In this document: positions 47,055 through 53,219 of the stretch, piece after piece
How the letters are laid out: each line of letters starts with the position of its first letter
Numbering within the stretch: the stretch's first letter is position 1
DNA from: Desulfomicrobium escambiense DSM 10707
GTDB taxonomy: Bacteria > Desulfobacterota > Desulfovibrionia > Desulfovibrionales > Desulfomicrobiaceae
Reading direction: 5' to 3'
NCBI RefSeq assembly: GCF_000428825.1
Contig: NZ_AUAR01000008.1
Span: forward strand, 1 to 64,000
Length of the DNA: 64,000 nt
Translations under genes and position numbers: made by a program
Notes under the pieces: model-generated
What the model was told of the DNA's origin: nothing
Database searches by the model: none
What the model saw: only the letters and a program-made list of their open reading frames with translations

Positions 47055-48029
47055 TCAGCCCAGCAGCACGCTGCGGATCAGCACGGACACGTAACCGACG
47101 TAGCAGGCCAGCAGGATCGTGCCCTCGAAACGGTTGATGCGCCCCTGGCCCGGGCCGCGAAAGCCGTAGCCCATGACGAAGAGGGAAAAGGTCAGGCCGG
47201 CCATGACCAGGATGTCGCGGGAGAAGACCTCCGGACCGACGCGCAGGGGGGAGATGGACCCGGCGATGCCGACCACGGCCAGGGTGTTGAAGAGGTTCGA
47301 GCCGAGGATGTTGCCCAGGGCGATGTCGTCCTCGCCCTTGCGCGCGGCGACGATGGACGAGGCCAGTTCGGGCAGGGACGTGCCCACGGCGACGATGGTC
47401 AGGCCGATGATCATGTCGCTGACCCCGAAACCGCGGGCCAGTTCCACCGCTCCCCAGACCAGGATGCGCGAACTGGCCACGAGCAGGACAAGCCCGACCG
47501 CCAGCCAGGTCAGGGCGCGGCGCAGGGGCATTGGGCGCCTCATCTCCTGCTCCATCTCCAGACCCAGGGCATCGGTCTGCCGGCGCAGTCCCTGCCAAAC
47601 GGTCCAGGCCATGAGCCCGCCGAAGACGGCCAGGAGCGTCACGGCATCGCCACGCGAGACCTCCCCGTCCATGAGCTGCCACGCGGCGAAGACGGTCACG
47701 GCCGTCAGGATCGGCAATTCCGTGCGCAGCACGCGTGAATGCACCATCACGGGCCGAATGACGGCGGTCAGGCCGAGGATGAGGGCGATGTTGGTGATGT
47801 TCGAGCCAAAGGCGTTGCCCAAGGCGATTCCGGGGTTGCCCTGGCTCGCCGACAGCGCCGAGACGACCATCTCCGGCGCGGACGTGCCGAAGCCGACGAT
47901 GACCATGCCGATGAGCAGCGACGGCATGCCGAGGCGGCTTGCCGCGGAGGCCGCCCCGTCCACAAAACGCTCGGCGCTCCAGACCAGCAGGGCGAGGCCG
48001 AACACGACGGCGAGAATCGGGGTGATCAT
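47055..48029 (-). CDS. CaCA-family Ca2+/cation antiporter (YrbG-like)
   Basis: 324 residues, about ten membrane helices in two inverted halves, each with an alpha-repeat: GFGTSAPEMVVSALSA then GNAFGSNITNIALILG, and GTSLPELASSIVAAR then GNILGSNLFNTLAVVG. It exchanges Ca2+ (or Mn2+) for Na+ or H+. Its mRNA begins with a yybP-ykoY riboswitch (48186-48306), implying control by Mn2+, so manganese export is plausible. GGGAGG lies before the ATG at 48029, which overlaps the stop of a 43-codon leader ORF. Confidence 0.92.
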   Translation of the reverse strand: MITPILAVVFGLALLVWSAERFVDGAASAASRLGMPSLLIGMVIVGFGTSAPEMVVSALSASQGNPGIALGNAFGSNITNIALILGLTAVIRPVMVHSRVLRTELPILTAVTVFAAWQLMDGEVSRGDAVTLLAVFGGLMAWTVWQGLRRQTDALGLEMEQEMRRPMPLRRALTWLAVGLVLLVASSRILVWGAVELARGFGVSDMIIGLTIVAVGTSLPELASSIVAARKGEDDIALGNILGSNLFNTLAVVGIAGSISPLRVGPEVFSRDILVMAGLTFSLFVMGYGFRGPGQGRINRFEGTILLACYVGYVSVLIRSVLLG

Positions 48030-48157
48030 GCGCAGTCCCTCCCGGGGTGCGTGAAGCCCCCGCTCACGATGGGACAACGCCCGGTTTGGACGTCTGAATC
48101 CTGGATGAGGCCACCCCTCGGGGATGGCGAAGACGGCAGGAAACGGTTCTTTTTCAT
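48026..48157 (-). CDS. 43-residue leader ORF between riboswitch and antiporter
   Basis: Encodes MKKNRFLPSSPSPRGG followed by 27 residues ending GRDCA. It has a strong ribosome site (GGAGGTCTC before the ATG at 48157), and its TGA overlaps the antiporter ATG (ATGA). It starts about 30 bases after the riboswitch terminator. I do not recognise the peptide. It may serve to couple ribosomes into the antiporter start. Confidence 0.5.
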   Translation of the reverse strand: MKKNRFLPSSPSPRGGLIQDSDVQTGRCPIVSGGFTHPGRDCA

Positions 48158-48185: not shown

Positions 48186-48306
48186 AAAAAAAAGACCTCC
48201 AGCACGGTTCGGTGCTGAAGGTCTTGCTCATCGGTGTGATCCGACGGCAAGGCCAAGCGCGGAAGCGCCGGTGTTGTTGACCTTGCCTGGAGGAGCTACT
48301 CCCCTT
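48186..48306 (-). ncRNA. yybP-ykoY (Mn2+) riboswitch upstream of the antiporter
   Basis: On the minus strand the RNA begins AAGGGGAGTAGC and ends CGATGAGCAAGACCTTC, the two conserved parts of the manganese aptamer, with a paired arm between (GGCAAGGTC / GGCCTTGCC). It runs into a terminator stem (AGACCTTCAGC / GCTGGAGGTCT) and eight T residues. Mn2+ binding should favour the aptamer fold and free the gene from termination. A near-identical copy is at 52158-52280. Confidence 0.92.
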
Positions 48307-48317
48307 CGAAAAAAATA

Positions 48318-48444: not shown

Positions 48445-49605
48445 TCACCCACACGAAGTCTCCAAGGGCAACACGACGACCTGATTTCGCCCCTTGTCCT
48501 TGCCCACGTACAACGCCTTGTCGGCGACATGGACGCAATCGTTGATGGTCATGCACGGATTCTCACAGGCGCTGACGCCGAAGGTCGCGGTGACCCGGAA
48601 AGACTCGCCGCCGCACGAAAAGGGGGTGTCCGCAATGGCCTTGCGGATGCGCTCGGCGATCACGGCGGCCCCTGGGGCATCCGTATCCTTGAGCAGCATG
48701 ACGAACTCCTCCCCGCCCCAGCGCGCGACCCTGTCCTGGGCGCGCAGGCTGTTCGTCAGAAGCGTCGAGATGACCTTGAGAACCTCGTCGCCGCAGACAT
48801 GGCCGAAAGTGTCGTTTATGTCCTTGAAATTGTCGACATCGCACATGACAAGAGAAAAACCGGGAAAGACGGCGCGGACCTGCGCGGCGTGCCTTCTGCG
48901 GTTCAGCGCGGCGATCTCCGTGTCCAGACAGTCGATGATGGCCCGGCGATTCGGCAGCCCGGTCAGGAAGTCCGTCAGCGCCATCTCCTCGATCTTGCGG
49001 TTTTTCTCCTCAAGGGCCGCGTTGGCCGCGGCGAGGCGGTTCTGGGTCAGGAGACGTTCCTCCTCCAGGCGGATGGCGGACGAAAAGGCCTCGATGATGT
49101 ACTGCTCGATCTCCGTGTATTCGCGCTTGCGGGTGTCGACGACGCACAGCGACCCGACCACCCTGCCTTCCAGCTGGATAGGGAAGCCCAGGTAGGATTT
49201 CAGGCCGTACTGCCTGACGTTGGCGTCCAGCGTTGCCCATTCCGTGCCCTCCAGGTCGTTGAGGACAACGGCCTTCATGTTGGACGGGTCGCGGTGCGAG
49301 ATGGTCATGTCGTAGCAGATATGGCCTTCCGGGGCGTCTTCCCGCTTGAAGCCAGGAGGTTCATGATCGATGGACCACGTCCTGAGCACACCGCCTTCGA
49401 GCCGGTTGTAGAACGCCACGTCTGAACCGAGGACCTTTCCCAGCGTGGTGACGACAACGTCGATGTTCCTGATGGGATCGGGTCCGAGCAGATAGAAATA
49501 GTCGAAGAGAAAGCGCCGCATCTCCACCAGGGCGTCCTCGGCCTTCTTCCTCATCTGGGATTGCTTCTCCGCGACCATCCGCCAGTCCGAGCTCTGCGTA
49601 CTCAT
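48445..49605 (-). CDS. GAF-domain diguanylate cyclase
   Basis: 386 residues, soluble. A GAF domain occupies about 40-185 (LKSYLGFPIQLEGRVVGSLC), a coiled linker follows, then a GGDEF domain with GGEEF near residue 297 and inhibitory RAQD five residues before it. It makes cyclic-di-GMP in response to a cytoplasmic signal. GAGGAT precedes the ATG. It lies between the two riboswitch units but reads separately. Confidence 0.93.
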   Translation of the reverse strand: MSTQSSDWRMVAEKQSQMRKKAEDALVEMRRFLFDYFYLLGPDPIRNIDVVVTTLGKVLGSDVAFYNRLEGGVLRTWSIDHEPPGFKREDAPEGHICYDMTISHRDPSNMKAVVLNDLEGTEWATLDANVRQYGLKSYLGFPIQLEGRVVGSLCVVDTRKREYTEIEQYIIEAFSSAIRLEEERLLTQNRLAAANAALEEKNRKIEEMALTDFLTGLPNRRAIIDCLDTEIAALNRRRHAAQVRAVFPGFSLVMCDVDNFKDINDTFGHVCGDEVLKVISTLLTNSLRAQDRVARWGGEEFVMLLKDTDAPGAAVIAERIRKAIADTPFSCGGESFRVTATFGVSACENPCMTINDCVHVADKALYVGKDKGRNQVVVLPLETSCG

Positions 49606-49889: not shown

Positions 49890-51932
49890 ATGATCACCCA
49901 TCTGAAGCAACTTCTATCACGACGCTCCACCGCCCCGGCCCCGGACTCCACGTACAGCGGCAGGCAGACGATTCGCAGGGAAATGTTCCTCATCGGCCTG
50001 TTCTGCCTGGCGGCGATAGCCGTCGTCGTCGTTTCCATGCAGTCCATGGGCATCTACCGCGCGGGCATGGACAGCGCGCGCGAACGGATCACCGGCGCGA
50101 ACAGGCAGATTTCGTCCTACGTCGAGGCCCACCTCGAAGGCCTGGCGGCCGCGGTACGGATCATGGCCGCCACCCCCGATGTCGTGCATGGCGACACAAG
50201 CGGCGAGGAATCCAGGGAACGCGCCCGGACCTACTTCCGTTTCGTCGAGCTATCCAACCCGAACGTGAAGTACTGTTATGCAGGCTATGCAGGCGGAGAA
50301 CTGCTGATCAACGGCTACATCCCGCCCGATGGCTACGATCCGAGGGTCCGGCCCTGGTACGTCGCCGCGGTCGAAAGCTGGCCCAAAATGACCATCGGCC
50401 TGCCCTATCGGGACATCGTCGACCAGGAGTGGCTCGTCGCCATATCATCGGCCTTTTCCGACGCCAACGGCCTGCGCGGCGTCGTCTCCGTCGATAGCAC
50501 CCTGTCCAGCATGGACGGGATGCTCAACAATATCAAATCCTTCAGCAGCCAGTCGAACTTCGTCGTCAATGCCGGGGGGCAGATCCTCATCCACAACAAC
50601 GAGAACGGGTACCTAGACCACAAAATCGGGGACATTGTCCCCGGGGCCATGGAGCTGATGAAGGCCGATACCGGCTATATCGAATACGACTTGCCCGGAA
50701 CCGGAATCCGGATGGCGTATTTCACCCGGCTCAACATCAACGACTGGATCATCATATCCGCCGTGGACCGGGACGAGGTCATGGCCCCGATCAGAGGCAG
50801 GATCGCGCTGACCGTGTCGGCGACGGCCCTGGTCACGCTGCTGCTGGGGCTTCTGCAGCTCAAGGCGTACGAGTGGCGCTTCGTCGAGCCGTTCATGACC
50901 CTCAAACGGCGCATAGCCGACATCACGGCGGGCAGGGAGGCGGGCAGAAAGCCGCCGTCCATTTCCAACGCCGAACTGGCTTCCATCGCGGACAGCATCG
51001 AAGGGATGACCCAGTCCTCTCTCCGGCGCAAGGCCACGGAGCTGCGGCTCATCCTGGAGACGACCAGCGACGGCCTGCTGGTCCTGGACGATCAGGACAG
51101 GATCACGCACTACAACCAGCGCTTCCTCGAACTGTGGAACCTCCGGGACGAGCATGTCGGCGGGGGACTGAGCGCCCTCGTCATCGAGCACGTCAGAGGG
51201 GCCGTCCTGCCCGAGTCCGCCGACAGCGTACTCGAAACACGCCACAAGGACCGGGACAGCCAGCTGATCCACCTGAAAACGGGGATCATCCTCGAACAAA
51301 GCGCCCGGCCGCTGCTCGAGGACGGCAGCGTCACGGGCTGGCTGTGGAGTTTCAAGGATGTGACCATCAAGATCATGGCCGAAGAAAAGCTCCGGTTACT
51401 GGCCGCCACGGACGAACTGACGGGCCTTTGGAACCGGCGCTGCTTCATGGGCCGGGCCGAGGCGGAAATCACCGAGGCGACGCGCCTGCGCCAACCCTTG
51501 TGCCTGGTGCTCCTGGACGCGGACCACTTCAAGCGCATCAACGACACCTACGGCCACGCGGCCGGGGACGCCGCCCTGAAATACCTGGCGAACACGCTGA
51601 CCTCGCGCCTTCGCTCCTCGGACACCGTCGGACGGATCGGCGGAGAGGAATTCGCGATCCTGCTGCCCAACACGGGCCAGGAGACTGCCCGGGCGGTGCT
51701 CGAAAAGATCCGGACCGTCATCGCGCAAGGACGCTTCACCTTTGGCGACAAGGAACTGGCCTTCACCGTAAGCATCGGCATCGCCGCCCTGCAAGGCGCC
51801 AAGATCAGCGTCGACGAATTCTTCTCCGTCGCCGACGCAGCCTGCTACCAGGCCAAGGCCCTGGGACGGAACCGCACCGTGGTCCGGGCCTGCGACAGCC
51901 CCCGGCCGGATGAAGCCGTAAGCCGGCAGTGA
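49890..51932 (+). CDS. Membrane diguanylate cyclase with Cache and PAS domains
   Basis: 680 residues. A transmembrane helix (33-52) leads to a dCache sensor (about 60-300; YDPRVRPWYVAAVESWPKMT is the typical segment), a second helix near 305-325, a PAS domain (about 390-500; LILETTSDGLLVLDDQDRIT) and a GGDEF domain with GGEEF near 585, preceded by RSSD. It converts an extracellular signal to cyclic-di-GMP. No Shine-Dalgarno sequence precedes the ATG at 49890, so the exact start is uncertain. Confidence 0.92.
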   Translation: MITHLKQLLSRRSTAPAPDSTYSGRQTIRREMFLIGLFCLAAIAVVVVSMQSMGIYRAGMDSARERITGANRQISSYVEAHLEGLAAAVRIMAATPDVVHGDTSGEESRERARTYFRFVELSNPNVKYCYAGYAGGELLINGYIPPDGYDPRVRPWYVAAVESWPKMTIGLPYRDIVDQEWLVAISSAFSDANGLRGVVSVDSTLSSMDGMLNNIKSFSSQSNFVVNAGGQILIHNNENGYLDHKIGDIVPGAMELMKADTGYIEYDLPGTGIRMAYFTRLNINDWIIISAVDRDEVMAPIRGRIALTVSATALVTLLLGLLQLKAYEWRFVEPFMTLKRRIADITAGREAGRKPPSISNAELASIADSIEGMTQSSLRRKATELRLILETTSDGLLVLDDQDRITHYNQRFLELWNLRDEHVGGGLSALVIEHVRGAVLPESADSVLETRHKDRDSQLIHLKTGIILEQSARPLLEDGSVTGWLWSFKDVTIKIMAEEKLRLLAATDELTGLWNRRCFMGRAEAEITEATRLRQPLCLVLLDADHFKRINDTYGHAAGDAALKYLANTLTSRLRSSDTVGRIGGEEFAILLPNTGQETARAVLEKIRTVIAQGRFTFGDKELAFTVSIGIAALQGAKISVDEFFSVADAACYQAKALGRNRTVVRACDSPRPDEAVSRQ

Positions 51933-52119: not shown

Positions 52120-52149
52120 TTGACAATGTGCCTCCATGCACAATATTTA
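52120..52149 (+). promoter_or_regulatory. Promoter of the second riboswitch unit
   Basis: TTGACA (52120-52125) and TATTTA (52144-52149) are spaced 18 bp. Transcription would begin near 52156, right at the aptamer. Confidence 0.65.
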
Positions 52150-52157
52150 TGGTTTTG

Positions 52158-52280
52158 AAGGGGAGTAGCTCCCAGTGGCAAGGTCAACAATACTGGCGCG
52201 AAAGCGCTTGGCCTTGCCGTCGGAATCAACCGATGAGCCAGACCTTCAGCATGATCAACCATGCTGGAGGTCTTTTTTTT
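52158..52280 (+). ncRNA. yybP-ykoY (Mn2+) riboswitch upstream of the Tim44-like gene
   Basis: Begins AAGGGGAGTAGC, with GGCAAGGTC / GGCCTTGCC pairing, and ends CGATGAGCCAGACCTTC, then a terminator stem (AGACCTTCAGCATG / CATGCTGGAGGTCT) and eight T residues. It parallels the copy at 48186-48306, with one base changed in the 3' conserved part (AGCCAGACC instead of AGCAAGACC). Confidence 0.9.
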
Positions 52281-52310
52281 GGATGACCTCCAGCCAAATC
52301 AGGAGGTTCC

Positions 52311-53219
52311 ATGAAGACCGATTCTCTTTCTCCATCTTGCGCGGCCGTCGCGCATACAAGAACAGCCTATCTCTTTTTCCCCCTTATCGCCCTGGCCTTT
52401 CTACTTTTCACCTGGCCAGACCTGGCCGACGCAAAACGCATGGGCGGAGGCGGGTCCTTCGGCAGCAAACCGTCGTACAGCAGCGGCTACAACAAGCAGG
52501 CTTCCCCTTCCAAGGACTCCCCGACCATGGCCAAGCAGGCTGCACCGAACAGCCCGTCCCGCTTCGGCGGCCTCGGCGGCATGTTCGGTGGCCTGCTCAT
52601 GGGCGGCCTCATCGGCTCCATGCTTTTCGGCGGCGGATTCGCAGGCCCGGGCATGCTCGACATGCTTCTCCTGGCCATGGGCGGGTTTCTGCTGTTCAAG
52701 TTCCTAAAATCCCGCCGGGCGGCCACGGCAAATTCCGCGCCCTATGCCTACGCCGGACATGAAGAAGCCCGGAACCCCGGCTCTCATGGCGGATGGGGCC
52801 AGCAGCGCTTCGAAGCGCAGGCGCCGCCGCGGCCCGTCATGCCCCACGGCCTGGACGAGCAGGAATTCCTGGCCGGGGCGAAGGCCCTGTACACCCGCCT
52901 GCAGGCATCCTGGGACCGTCGGGACATCGACGACATCCGCCAGTTCACGAGCCCGGAAGTGTACGGCGAGATCGCACGCCAGGCAGCGCTCGACCCTGCG
53001 CCCGGGCGCACGGAAATCCTCATGGTCGAGGCGCGCGTACTGGAGGCCCGCAACGCAGGGACCGAAACCGTCATCAGTGTGCTCTTCGACGCCATGCTGC
53101 GCGAGGACGGCGAAGGCTCCCCGGCGGAGCAGGTCAGGGAAGTCTGGCACATCCGACGCGACGAAAGCGACCAGTCCCCCCAGTGGACCCTGGAGGGCAT
53201 CCAGCAACTGACGGTGTAG
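52311..53219 (+). CDS. Tim44-like domain membrane protein under Mn2+ riboswitch
   Basis: 302 residues. A signal or anchor segment (about 20-40; YLFFPLIALAFLLFTW) is followed by a low-complexity glycine-serine region, a second hydrophobic stretch of glycine and leucine (about 85-127), and a C-terminal Tim44-like domain (about 180-300; LYTRLQASWDRRDIDDIRQF; TVISVLFDAMLRED). Bacterial Tim44-like proteins are membrane-associated with no settled function. AGGAGGTTCC precedes the ATG at 52311, which lies 30 bases after the riboswitch terminator, so expression is likely raised by Mn2+. Confidence 0.87.
   Translation: MKTDSLSPSCAAVAHTRTAYLFFPLIALAFLLFTWPDLADAKRMGGGGSFGSKPSYSSGYNKQASPSKDSPTMAKQAAPNSPSRFGGLGGMFGGLLMGGLIGSMLFGGGFAGPGMLDMLLLAMGGFLLFKFLKSRRAATANSAPYAYAGHEEARNPGSHGGWGQQRFEAQAPPRPVMPHGLDEQEFLAGAKALYTRLQASWDRRDIDDIRQFTSPEVYGEIARQAALDPAPGRTEILMVEARVLEARNAGTETVISVLFDAMLREDGEGSPAEQVREVWHIRRDESDQSPQWTLEGIQQLTV

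Follow-up and report, generated by a model that had tools for sequence, protein, structure and literature searches.

Riboswitches of the yybP-ykoY class are known mainly for controlling metal transporters. At positions 52158 to 53219 of the window (the whole 64-kb stretch of DNA that was analyzed), the initial annotation had placed such a riboswitch directly before a gene for a glycine-rich Tim44-like protein, and this raises the question of whether the RNA is a Mn2+ riboswitch and, if so, what a protein of this kind does in the Mn2+ response. The coordinates were right to within one base at the aptamer, and the following features were assigned.

52120-52147, plus strand: sigma-70-like promoter, TTGACA - 16 - AATATT (alternatively TTGACA - 18 - TATTTA), from a consensus scan
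52157-52247, plus strand: Mn2+-riboswitch-type aptamer of the yybP-ykoY class, compact form (91 nt), from R2, R1, and RF00080 scores and pair counts
52157-52161, plus strand: 5' strand of the P1 switch helix, GAAGG, partner CCTTC at 52243-52247, from alignment A3 and pair counts
52160-52169, plus strand: L1 motif GGGGAGTAGC, from a motif scan of the genome
52187-52194, plus strand: L3 loop ACAAUACU, one extra A relative to ACAUACU, from alignment A3 and comparison with PMC6754395
52240-52281, plus strand: intrinsic terminator AGACCTTCAGCATG..CATGCTGGAGGTCT, 14-bp stem (52240-52273) plus T-run
52285-52294, plus strand: GACCTCCAGC, complementary to the terminator 3' arm (52263-52272) and, via ACCTCC, to the Shine-Dalgarno region, from folding
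52302-52306, plus strand: Shine-Dalgarno GGAGG of the Tim44-like gene, 4 nt before the ATG at 52311
52311-53219, plus strand: Tim44-like membrane protein gene (302 aa), from Pfam, AlphaFold2, and fold comparison

Membership in the riboswitch class was examined with covariance models. RF00080 at its gathering threshold was not reported in a cmscan of the whole window, where the Rfam output consisted of a tRNA only. With relaxed thresholds, cmscan matched RF00080 to 52159-52234; the score was 17.5 bits (cut-off, 45) and the E value 0.0072 in a search of 401 bases, too weak to serve as proof by itself. Two further models were built: R1, from 13 elements of Desulfomicrobium and related genomes, and R2, from 16 elements located before Na/Ca exchangers and TerC only, so that no Tim44 element entered the training and circularity was avoided. 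With R2, the Tim44 element of the window (52154-52250) scored 84 bits (E = 1e-17), and scores for its counterparts before Tim44 genes in other genera ranged from 73 to 88 bits; R1 gave the window element 116 bits. RF00080 itself gave 35 bits (E = 5e-6) for the Tim44-associated element L099, and the exchanger element G196 bridged the models (RF00080, 43.8 bits; R1, 69 bits), indicating that compact and classical forms intergrade. A verdict of "no riboswitch" from the Rfam gathering threshold alone was thus overturned by the cross-trained model, conservation, and the L1 and L3 motifs.

Among the 297 Desulfovibrionia genomes, R1 elements were found in 94 and RF00080 matches at its threshold in 26, many at the same places; at the thresholds used, most elements of these bacteria escape the current Rfam model. 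The RF00080 gathering threshold was passed in few genomes of the class (3 of 297). In the genome that contains the window, RF00080 missed both window elements (the second is described below) and reported the HtpX leader weakly. Three R1 matches with E values of about 0.003 (L188 to L190) were probably due to chance and were left out. Judged by descent and anatomy as read from sequence, the element is a member of the yybP-ykoY class despite failing the Rfam cut-off.

The anatomy of the leader was then compared with that of solved riboswitches. The promoter matched the consensus at 10 of 12 positions (0.2 expected in the region), and its counterpart in L006, TTGACG..TAATAAT, lies at the same place; the transcript probably starts at about 52150, just ahead of the aptamer. 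In the class, P2, P3, and P4 join P1 in a four-way junction; here, helices P1, P3, P3.1, and P4 are present, and P2 has at most 2 to 3 bp and is reduced to a connector of 6 to 8 nt. The leader is laid out as GAAGGGGAGTAGC...GGCAAGGTCAACAATACTGGCGCGAAAGCGCTTGGCCTTGCCGTCGG...CCGATGAGCCAGACCTTC, followed by the 14-bp terminator with its T-run. The proposed helices contained 96% standard pairs, with four pairs changed on both sides, and none of 500 shuffles scored as high; pairing collapsed when the helices were slid by 1 to 3 columns. P1 was paired in all 13 aligned elements and is invariant, so it contributes no covariation evidence. Folding of the leader gave a z score of -6.2 relative to shuffles, much of which came from the terminator.

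In solved Mn2+ riboswitches, L1 docks with L3. The L1 motif GGGGAGUAGC was found at 52160-52169, and GGGGAGTA(A/G)C was present in all 13 aligned elements; in alignment A3, both GGGGAGUARC of L1 and UCAACA of L3 were invariant. The genome contains five GGGGAGTARC sites, three of which lie in full elements, located before the Tim44-like gene, a YrbG-type antiporter gene, and htpX (contig 17). The L3 sequence (A/G)TCAACA occurred in 107 of the 115 elements examined, and three of the eight exceptions were weak and probably false matches. By alignment and loop comparison, A52189 is the counterpart of A48 of Xanthomonas oryzae, the Mn2+-sensing adenosine (A48/A41) of the solved structures (PMC6754395). 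Taken with the model scores, these features make it very probable that a riboswitch of the yybP-ykoY class controls the Tim44-like gene.

How the aptamer might be coupled to expression was examined by folding. The terminator overlaps the 3' strand of P1 (52243-52247), and P1 and the terminator are therefore mutually exclusive. Unconstrained, the leader folded into the terminator plus a hairpin masking the Shine-Dalgarno sequence; with P1 forced, an alternative 10-bp hairpin formed. GACCTCCAGC formed helices of 10 bp and 6 bp in two leader folds. Its complementarity to the terminator arm is kept in Desulfomicrobium and in many other leaders: the helix has 9 to 11 bp in Desulfomicrobium, a length rarely reached by shuffled sequence, and 6 to 9 bp in several more distant genera, where it is often not beyond chance. 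In two leaders (L100 and L102), the T-run is gone and the masking segment is kept, as would be expected if the translational control is real. The leader probably works as a two-layer platform controlling both transcription and ribosome access.

The encoded protein contains an N-terminal hydrophobic helix (residues 14 to 33), a Gly-rich stretch with a transmembrane (TM) helix (115 to 140), and a Tim44 (NTF2-like) domain (176 to 300). Pfam assigned the Tim44 domain (PF04280) to residues 177 to 299 (E = 1.1e-15; 58.5 bits against a cut-off of 29.6), and no transporter family was found in the Pfam search. The description of a glycine-rich protein without transporter features, preceded directly by a yybP-ykoY-type riboswitch, was thereby borne out. 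The N terminus (..PDLADA-KRMGGGG) has the appearance of a signal peptide or anchor. Helix 115-140 has a basic end, KSRR, and by the positive-inside rule the Tim44 domain is probably on the cytoplasmic side. The window belongs to a Desulfomicrobium genome, the nearest named loci being L033 and L034 (95% and 93% protein identity).

No solved structure was found by a sequence search with the protein. An AlphaFold2 model had pLDDT values of at least 90 over blocks 181-300, and in fold comparison the predicted residues ~172 to 302 resembled mitoribosomal mL45 (Z ~13; 13.2 over 124 residues) and the C-terminal domain of human Tim44 (2cw9; Z = 12.5 over 141 residues), at 10 to 14% sequence identity. 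mL45 is also present in the mitoribosome-OXA1L structure 6zm5. The NTF2-like fold common to mL45 and Tim44 is by itself no proof of function. The protein missed the NCBIfam cut-offs for TimA (NF033778; 25.5 versus 200 bits) and for the Tim44/TimA adaptor (NF033779; 29.1 versus 80 bits). Among the riboswitch-controlled proteins, neither a clade-specific conserved metal-ligand pattern nor a residue pattern explaining the manganese link was seen.

Tim44-like genes are present in 267 of the 297 genomes of the class, and the initial annotation had proposed surveying them for the riboswitch. In a tree of 101 Tim44-like proteins, the element-controlled copies formed a single clade (27 rows; support, 98/99) spanning ten genera and two families. 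The element preceded 26 of the 27 clade members and none of the 74 rows outside the clade; for two of the compared rows, L061 and L227, the upstream sequence was shorter than 300 bases. Absence of the riboswitch before orthologues, which the initial annotation had named as a refutation, was therefore not what the survey showed. The label changed twice on the tree versus 23 times in shuffles. The sole clade member without a recognizable aptamer (L198 in G080) keeps a related terminator-like hairpin, and an Rfam search upstream of it revealed no convincing substitute; loss or replacement of the aptamer is the apparent explanation. No element was found before the Tim44-like genes of Methylococcaceae and other relatives. 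Desulfomicrobium has a second Tim44 paralogue, located just after the SRP RNA gene in the seven loci checked and lacking the element, and many of the 74 element-free genes likewise follow an SRP RNA gene. This single clade and the element-free, SRP-RNA-linked paralogue suggest that one copy of a duplicated housekeeping Tim44-like gene was probably placed under the Mn2+ riboswitch a single time and has remained there. The gene stands alone in Desulfomicrobium, and in most clade members the sequence read downstream of it contained no exporter.

Next, the other genes behind such elements were examined. The window itself contains a second case.

48214-48310, minus strand: second element of the same type, near-identical, with its own terminator (R2, 86.5 bits, E = 2.5e-18; R1, 113.6 bits)
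47055-48029, minus strand: YrbG-type calcium/sodium antiporter gene under the second element (PF01699, 3.6e-68; TIGR00367, 239.9 bits, cut-off 179.65)

Across the 297 genomes, the genes directly downstream of R1 elements formed clusters of 50 Na/Ca exchanger-like, 24 Tim44-like, 24 TerC-like, and 3 YrbG-like genes; Pfam and NCBIfam searches with representatives bore out these families. A TerC protein scored 371 bits with TIGR03718 ("R_switched_Alx"), above its cut-off. RF00080 matches added GDT1 and one further TerC, and an R2 scan of the phylum outside the class found elements before GDT1, P-type ATPases, TerC, and Na/Ca exchangers. Manganese-exporter families (TerC, GDT1, Na/Ca exchangers, and P-type ATPases) thus occur behind R1, R2, and RF00080 elements. 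GDT1, TerC/Alx, and P-type ATPases are known partners of the Mn2+ riboswitch. With the link to Tim44 conserved and the other genes behind the element forming the classical Mn2+ set, the sequence data are best explained as the initial annotation proposed, by a Tim44-like gene that newly joins the Mn2+ response.

In 11 of the 14 Desulfomicrobium loci where the upstream region could be read, the membrane protease gene htpX also follows an element, whose L3 resembles the Lactococcus lactis type. Three small genomes (G005, G006, and G012) have neither an htpX element nor a controlled Tim44 gene. In a distant family of the phylum, three more htpX genes (L314 to L316) follow such an element. Single operons were also found: htpX lies directly after the controlled Tim44 gene in G070 (L092), and riboswitch-Tim44-TerC operons occur at L093, L098, and L099, with TerC behind the controlled Tim44 gene in G129, G072, and G139 and confirmed for L098. 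Several genomes carry separate exporter genes under the same element, and others with a controlled Tim44 gene (e.g., G004, G009, G050, G060, and G066) have no other R1 match at threshold. The HtpX and TerC partners are present in some of the lineages only.

Several further observations were made at these loci. In Desulfomicrobium, a short, little-conserved open reading frame (ORF) of about 40 to 67 aa with a good Shine-Dalgarno sequence lies between the element and YrbG or TerC; in the window it occupies 48026-48157 (minus strand), its stop overlapping the YrbG start (ATGA), and others are at L138, L142, L084, and L087 to L089. Loss of a Tim44 gene could have left this ORF behind, or it may encode a leader peptide. 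A truncated Tim44 gene lies behind a second element in G001. An uncharacterized membrane protein of ~180 aa is encoded after the element in G007 and G001 (L141 and L090), in G001 after the truncated Tim44 gene and in G007 ahead of a CNNM/CorC-type transporter. A small zinc-ribbon protein (PF13453 in L287 and L096; similar in L290) follows Mn2+-type elements in other lineages and, in G126, the controlled Tim44 gene (L096:2739-3032). At L317:2206-2460 (minus strand), a PGPGW-type transmembrane protein is encoded after a Mn2+-type element and ahead of a P-type ATPase. The htpX genes of genera g21 and g17 are preceded by another type of structured leader that seems to be conserved (e.g., CGGGAACCGGAGGTTCTCTCCGGAACCCG ... 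terminator; L239 to L241, L243, L250 to L253, L259, and L260), for which three loci tested gave no convincing Rfam match; it is a candidate for a new regulatory RNA. Two divergent diguanylate cyclase genes (48445-49605, minus strand; 49890-51932, plus strand) with GAF-GGDEF and dCache-PAS-GGDEF domains separate the two riboswitch-controlled genes of the window.

Could the RNA be something other than a Mn2+ riboswitch? A mere attenuator or terminator resembling one by chance would agree with the RF00080 score under the cut-off, but the E value of 1e-17 from the cross-trained model, conservation across genera, and the common L1 and L3 motifs make this exceedingly improbable. It is also very unlikely that the compact aptamer responds to a different divalent ion or to some other condition (e.g., Ca2+, Cd2+, or alkaline pH with Mn2+). 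The extra base in L3, the reduced P2, and the many Na/Ca-type exchangers among the targets would fit such a change; against it, the L1 motif is retained, as is the invariant adenosine of L3, the targets include GDT1, TerC/Alx, and P-type ATPases, and G196 connects the compact form with the classical one. The ligand is highly likely to be Mn2+.

Two other explanations concern the gene rather than the RNA. The Tim44-like protein might handle manganese more directly, as an accessory subunit of a TerC- or CaCA-type exporter or as a Mn2+ metallochaperone, and the operons with TerC and the separate exporter genes under the same element in several genomes are in line with this. We consider it unlikely, given that the controlled clade has no specific conserved metal-ligand pattern, that the gene is alone in Desulfomicrobium, and that HtpX and the SRP-linked paralogues suggest a role in protein biogenesis instead. 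Alternatively, the riboswitch may have come from an exporter operon (riboswitch-Tim44-TerC) in which Tim44 merely stayed, with no role in manganese physiology. Such operons exist. In Desulfomicrobium, short unconserved ORFs separate the element from TerC and YrbG, and G001 has a truncated Tim44 gene after a second element, a pattern that loss of Tim44 between switch and exporter could explain. Retention of the element before Tim44 in 26 of 27 members from 10 genera, mostly with no exporter in the downstream sequence read, and the occurrence of HtpX under the element in two distant lineages render this hitch-hiking quite improbable.

The explanation that we favor, and hold to be fairly likely as a whole, is that a compact yybP-ykoY riboswitch turns on a dedicated Tim44-like paralogue when cytoplasmic Mn2+ is raised and that the product is a membrane adaptor working with TerC and HtpX. 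Mn2+ would dock L1 to L3 and stabilize P1, and with the 5' arm of the terminator taken, transcription would continue. As complementarity and folding suggest, the freed 3' arm of the terminator could then pair with GACCTCCAGC, unmasking the Shine-Dalgarno sequence and opening translation; without Mn2+, the leader would block both steps. By genomic association, TerC/Alx, Na/Ca-type exchangers, and the membrane protease HtpX would belong with the Tim44-like gene to one Mn2+ regulon, in some cases within a single operon. The protein, with a predicted inner-membrane anchor and a probably cytoplasmic Tim44 domain, could act as an adaptor near the translocon or insertase and might help in the insertion, metalation, and quality control of TerC-type exporters and of Mn2+-loaded exported or membrane proteins.

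The operon partners TerC and HtpX and the fold relatives mL45 and Tim44 point to insertion, metalation, and quality control, and on these grounds the chances that the protein is an adaptor in membrane biogenesis or quality control appear evenly balanced. The suggestion of an envelope factor protecting against excess metal fared less well: the Tim44 domain is predicted to be cytoplasmic, no sign of metal binding was seen, and these partners and fold relatives point elsewhere. In Bacillus subtilis, the TerC proteins MeeF and MeeY copurify with holotranslocon proteins (SecY and SecDF) and with the proteases FtsH and HtpX, meeY is controlled by a Mn2+ riboswitch, and a proposed role of TerC proteins is to supply exported proteins with Mn (PMC10550928). 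Uncontrolled expression of MntP in Escherichia coli causes membrane-protein toxicity (PMC11647493). We tentatively propose, with somewhat less than even confidence, that Mn2+ riboswitches control, beyond metal export, a module for membrane-protein biogenesis and quality control (the dedicated Tim44-like adaptor and HtpX) that works with TerC during translocation. If so, Mn2+ excess in Desulfomicrobium and related sulfate-reducing bacteria would induce both the exporters and the machinery for insertion, metalation, and surveillance of membrane proteins.

In a search of the main text of openly available articles, no publication was found that joined Tim44 with this riboswitch or that described HtpX under a manganese riboswitch as here. 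The main text of Sun et al. 2013 (PMC3766115), a study that covers Desulfovibrionales, names neither, and a Herbaspirillum paper linking htpX and RNA concerns sRNA targets and is unrelated. With a conserved single-clade Tim44-like target in ten genera, and with HtpX in two distant lineages, the Mn2+ response would reach into the handling of membrane proteins. The B. subtilis proposal that TerC proteins cooperate with the secretion machinery would gain independent backing from genomes, and the function of an uncharacterized bacterial Tim44-like protein can now be probed under a defined condition.

Comparison with known systems places these findings in context. With mL45 and the C-terminal domain of mitochondrial Tim44, the protein shares the predicted fold of residues ~172 to 302, at 10 to 14% identity. 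With the Tim44/TimA family (PF04280; NF033778/NF033779), it shares a Tim44 domain above the Pfam cut-off, a signal or TM helix, and a Gly-rich membrane segment, whereas it falls far below the NCBIfam TimA cut-offs and belongs to a separate clade under a Mn2+ riboswitch. The TerC (MeeF/MeeY) secretosome module of B. subtilis likewise has a Mn2+-riboswitch-controlled TerC and HtpX as a partner, but the HtpX link is physical there (copurification) and regulatory here, and Tim44-like proteins do not figure in the B. subtilis data of that study (PMC10550928). Finally, the element shares with yybP-ykoY Mn2+ riboswitches (RF00080; L. lactis yoaB, X. oryzae, B. subtilis ykoY/meeY, and E. coli mntP and alx) the L1 motif GGGGAGUAGC, the invariant adenosine of L3, a P1 that overlaps the terminator, P3/P3.1 and P4, and downstream exporters from the same families. 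It differs in the connector of 6 to 8 nt in place of P2, the additional base in L3, an Rfam score under the cut-off, the apparent combination of a terminator with Shine-Dalgarno masking, and its Tim44-like and HtpX targets.
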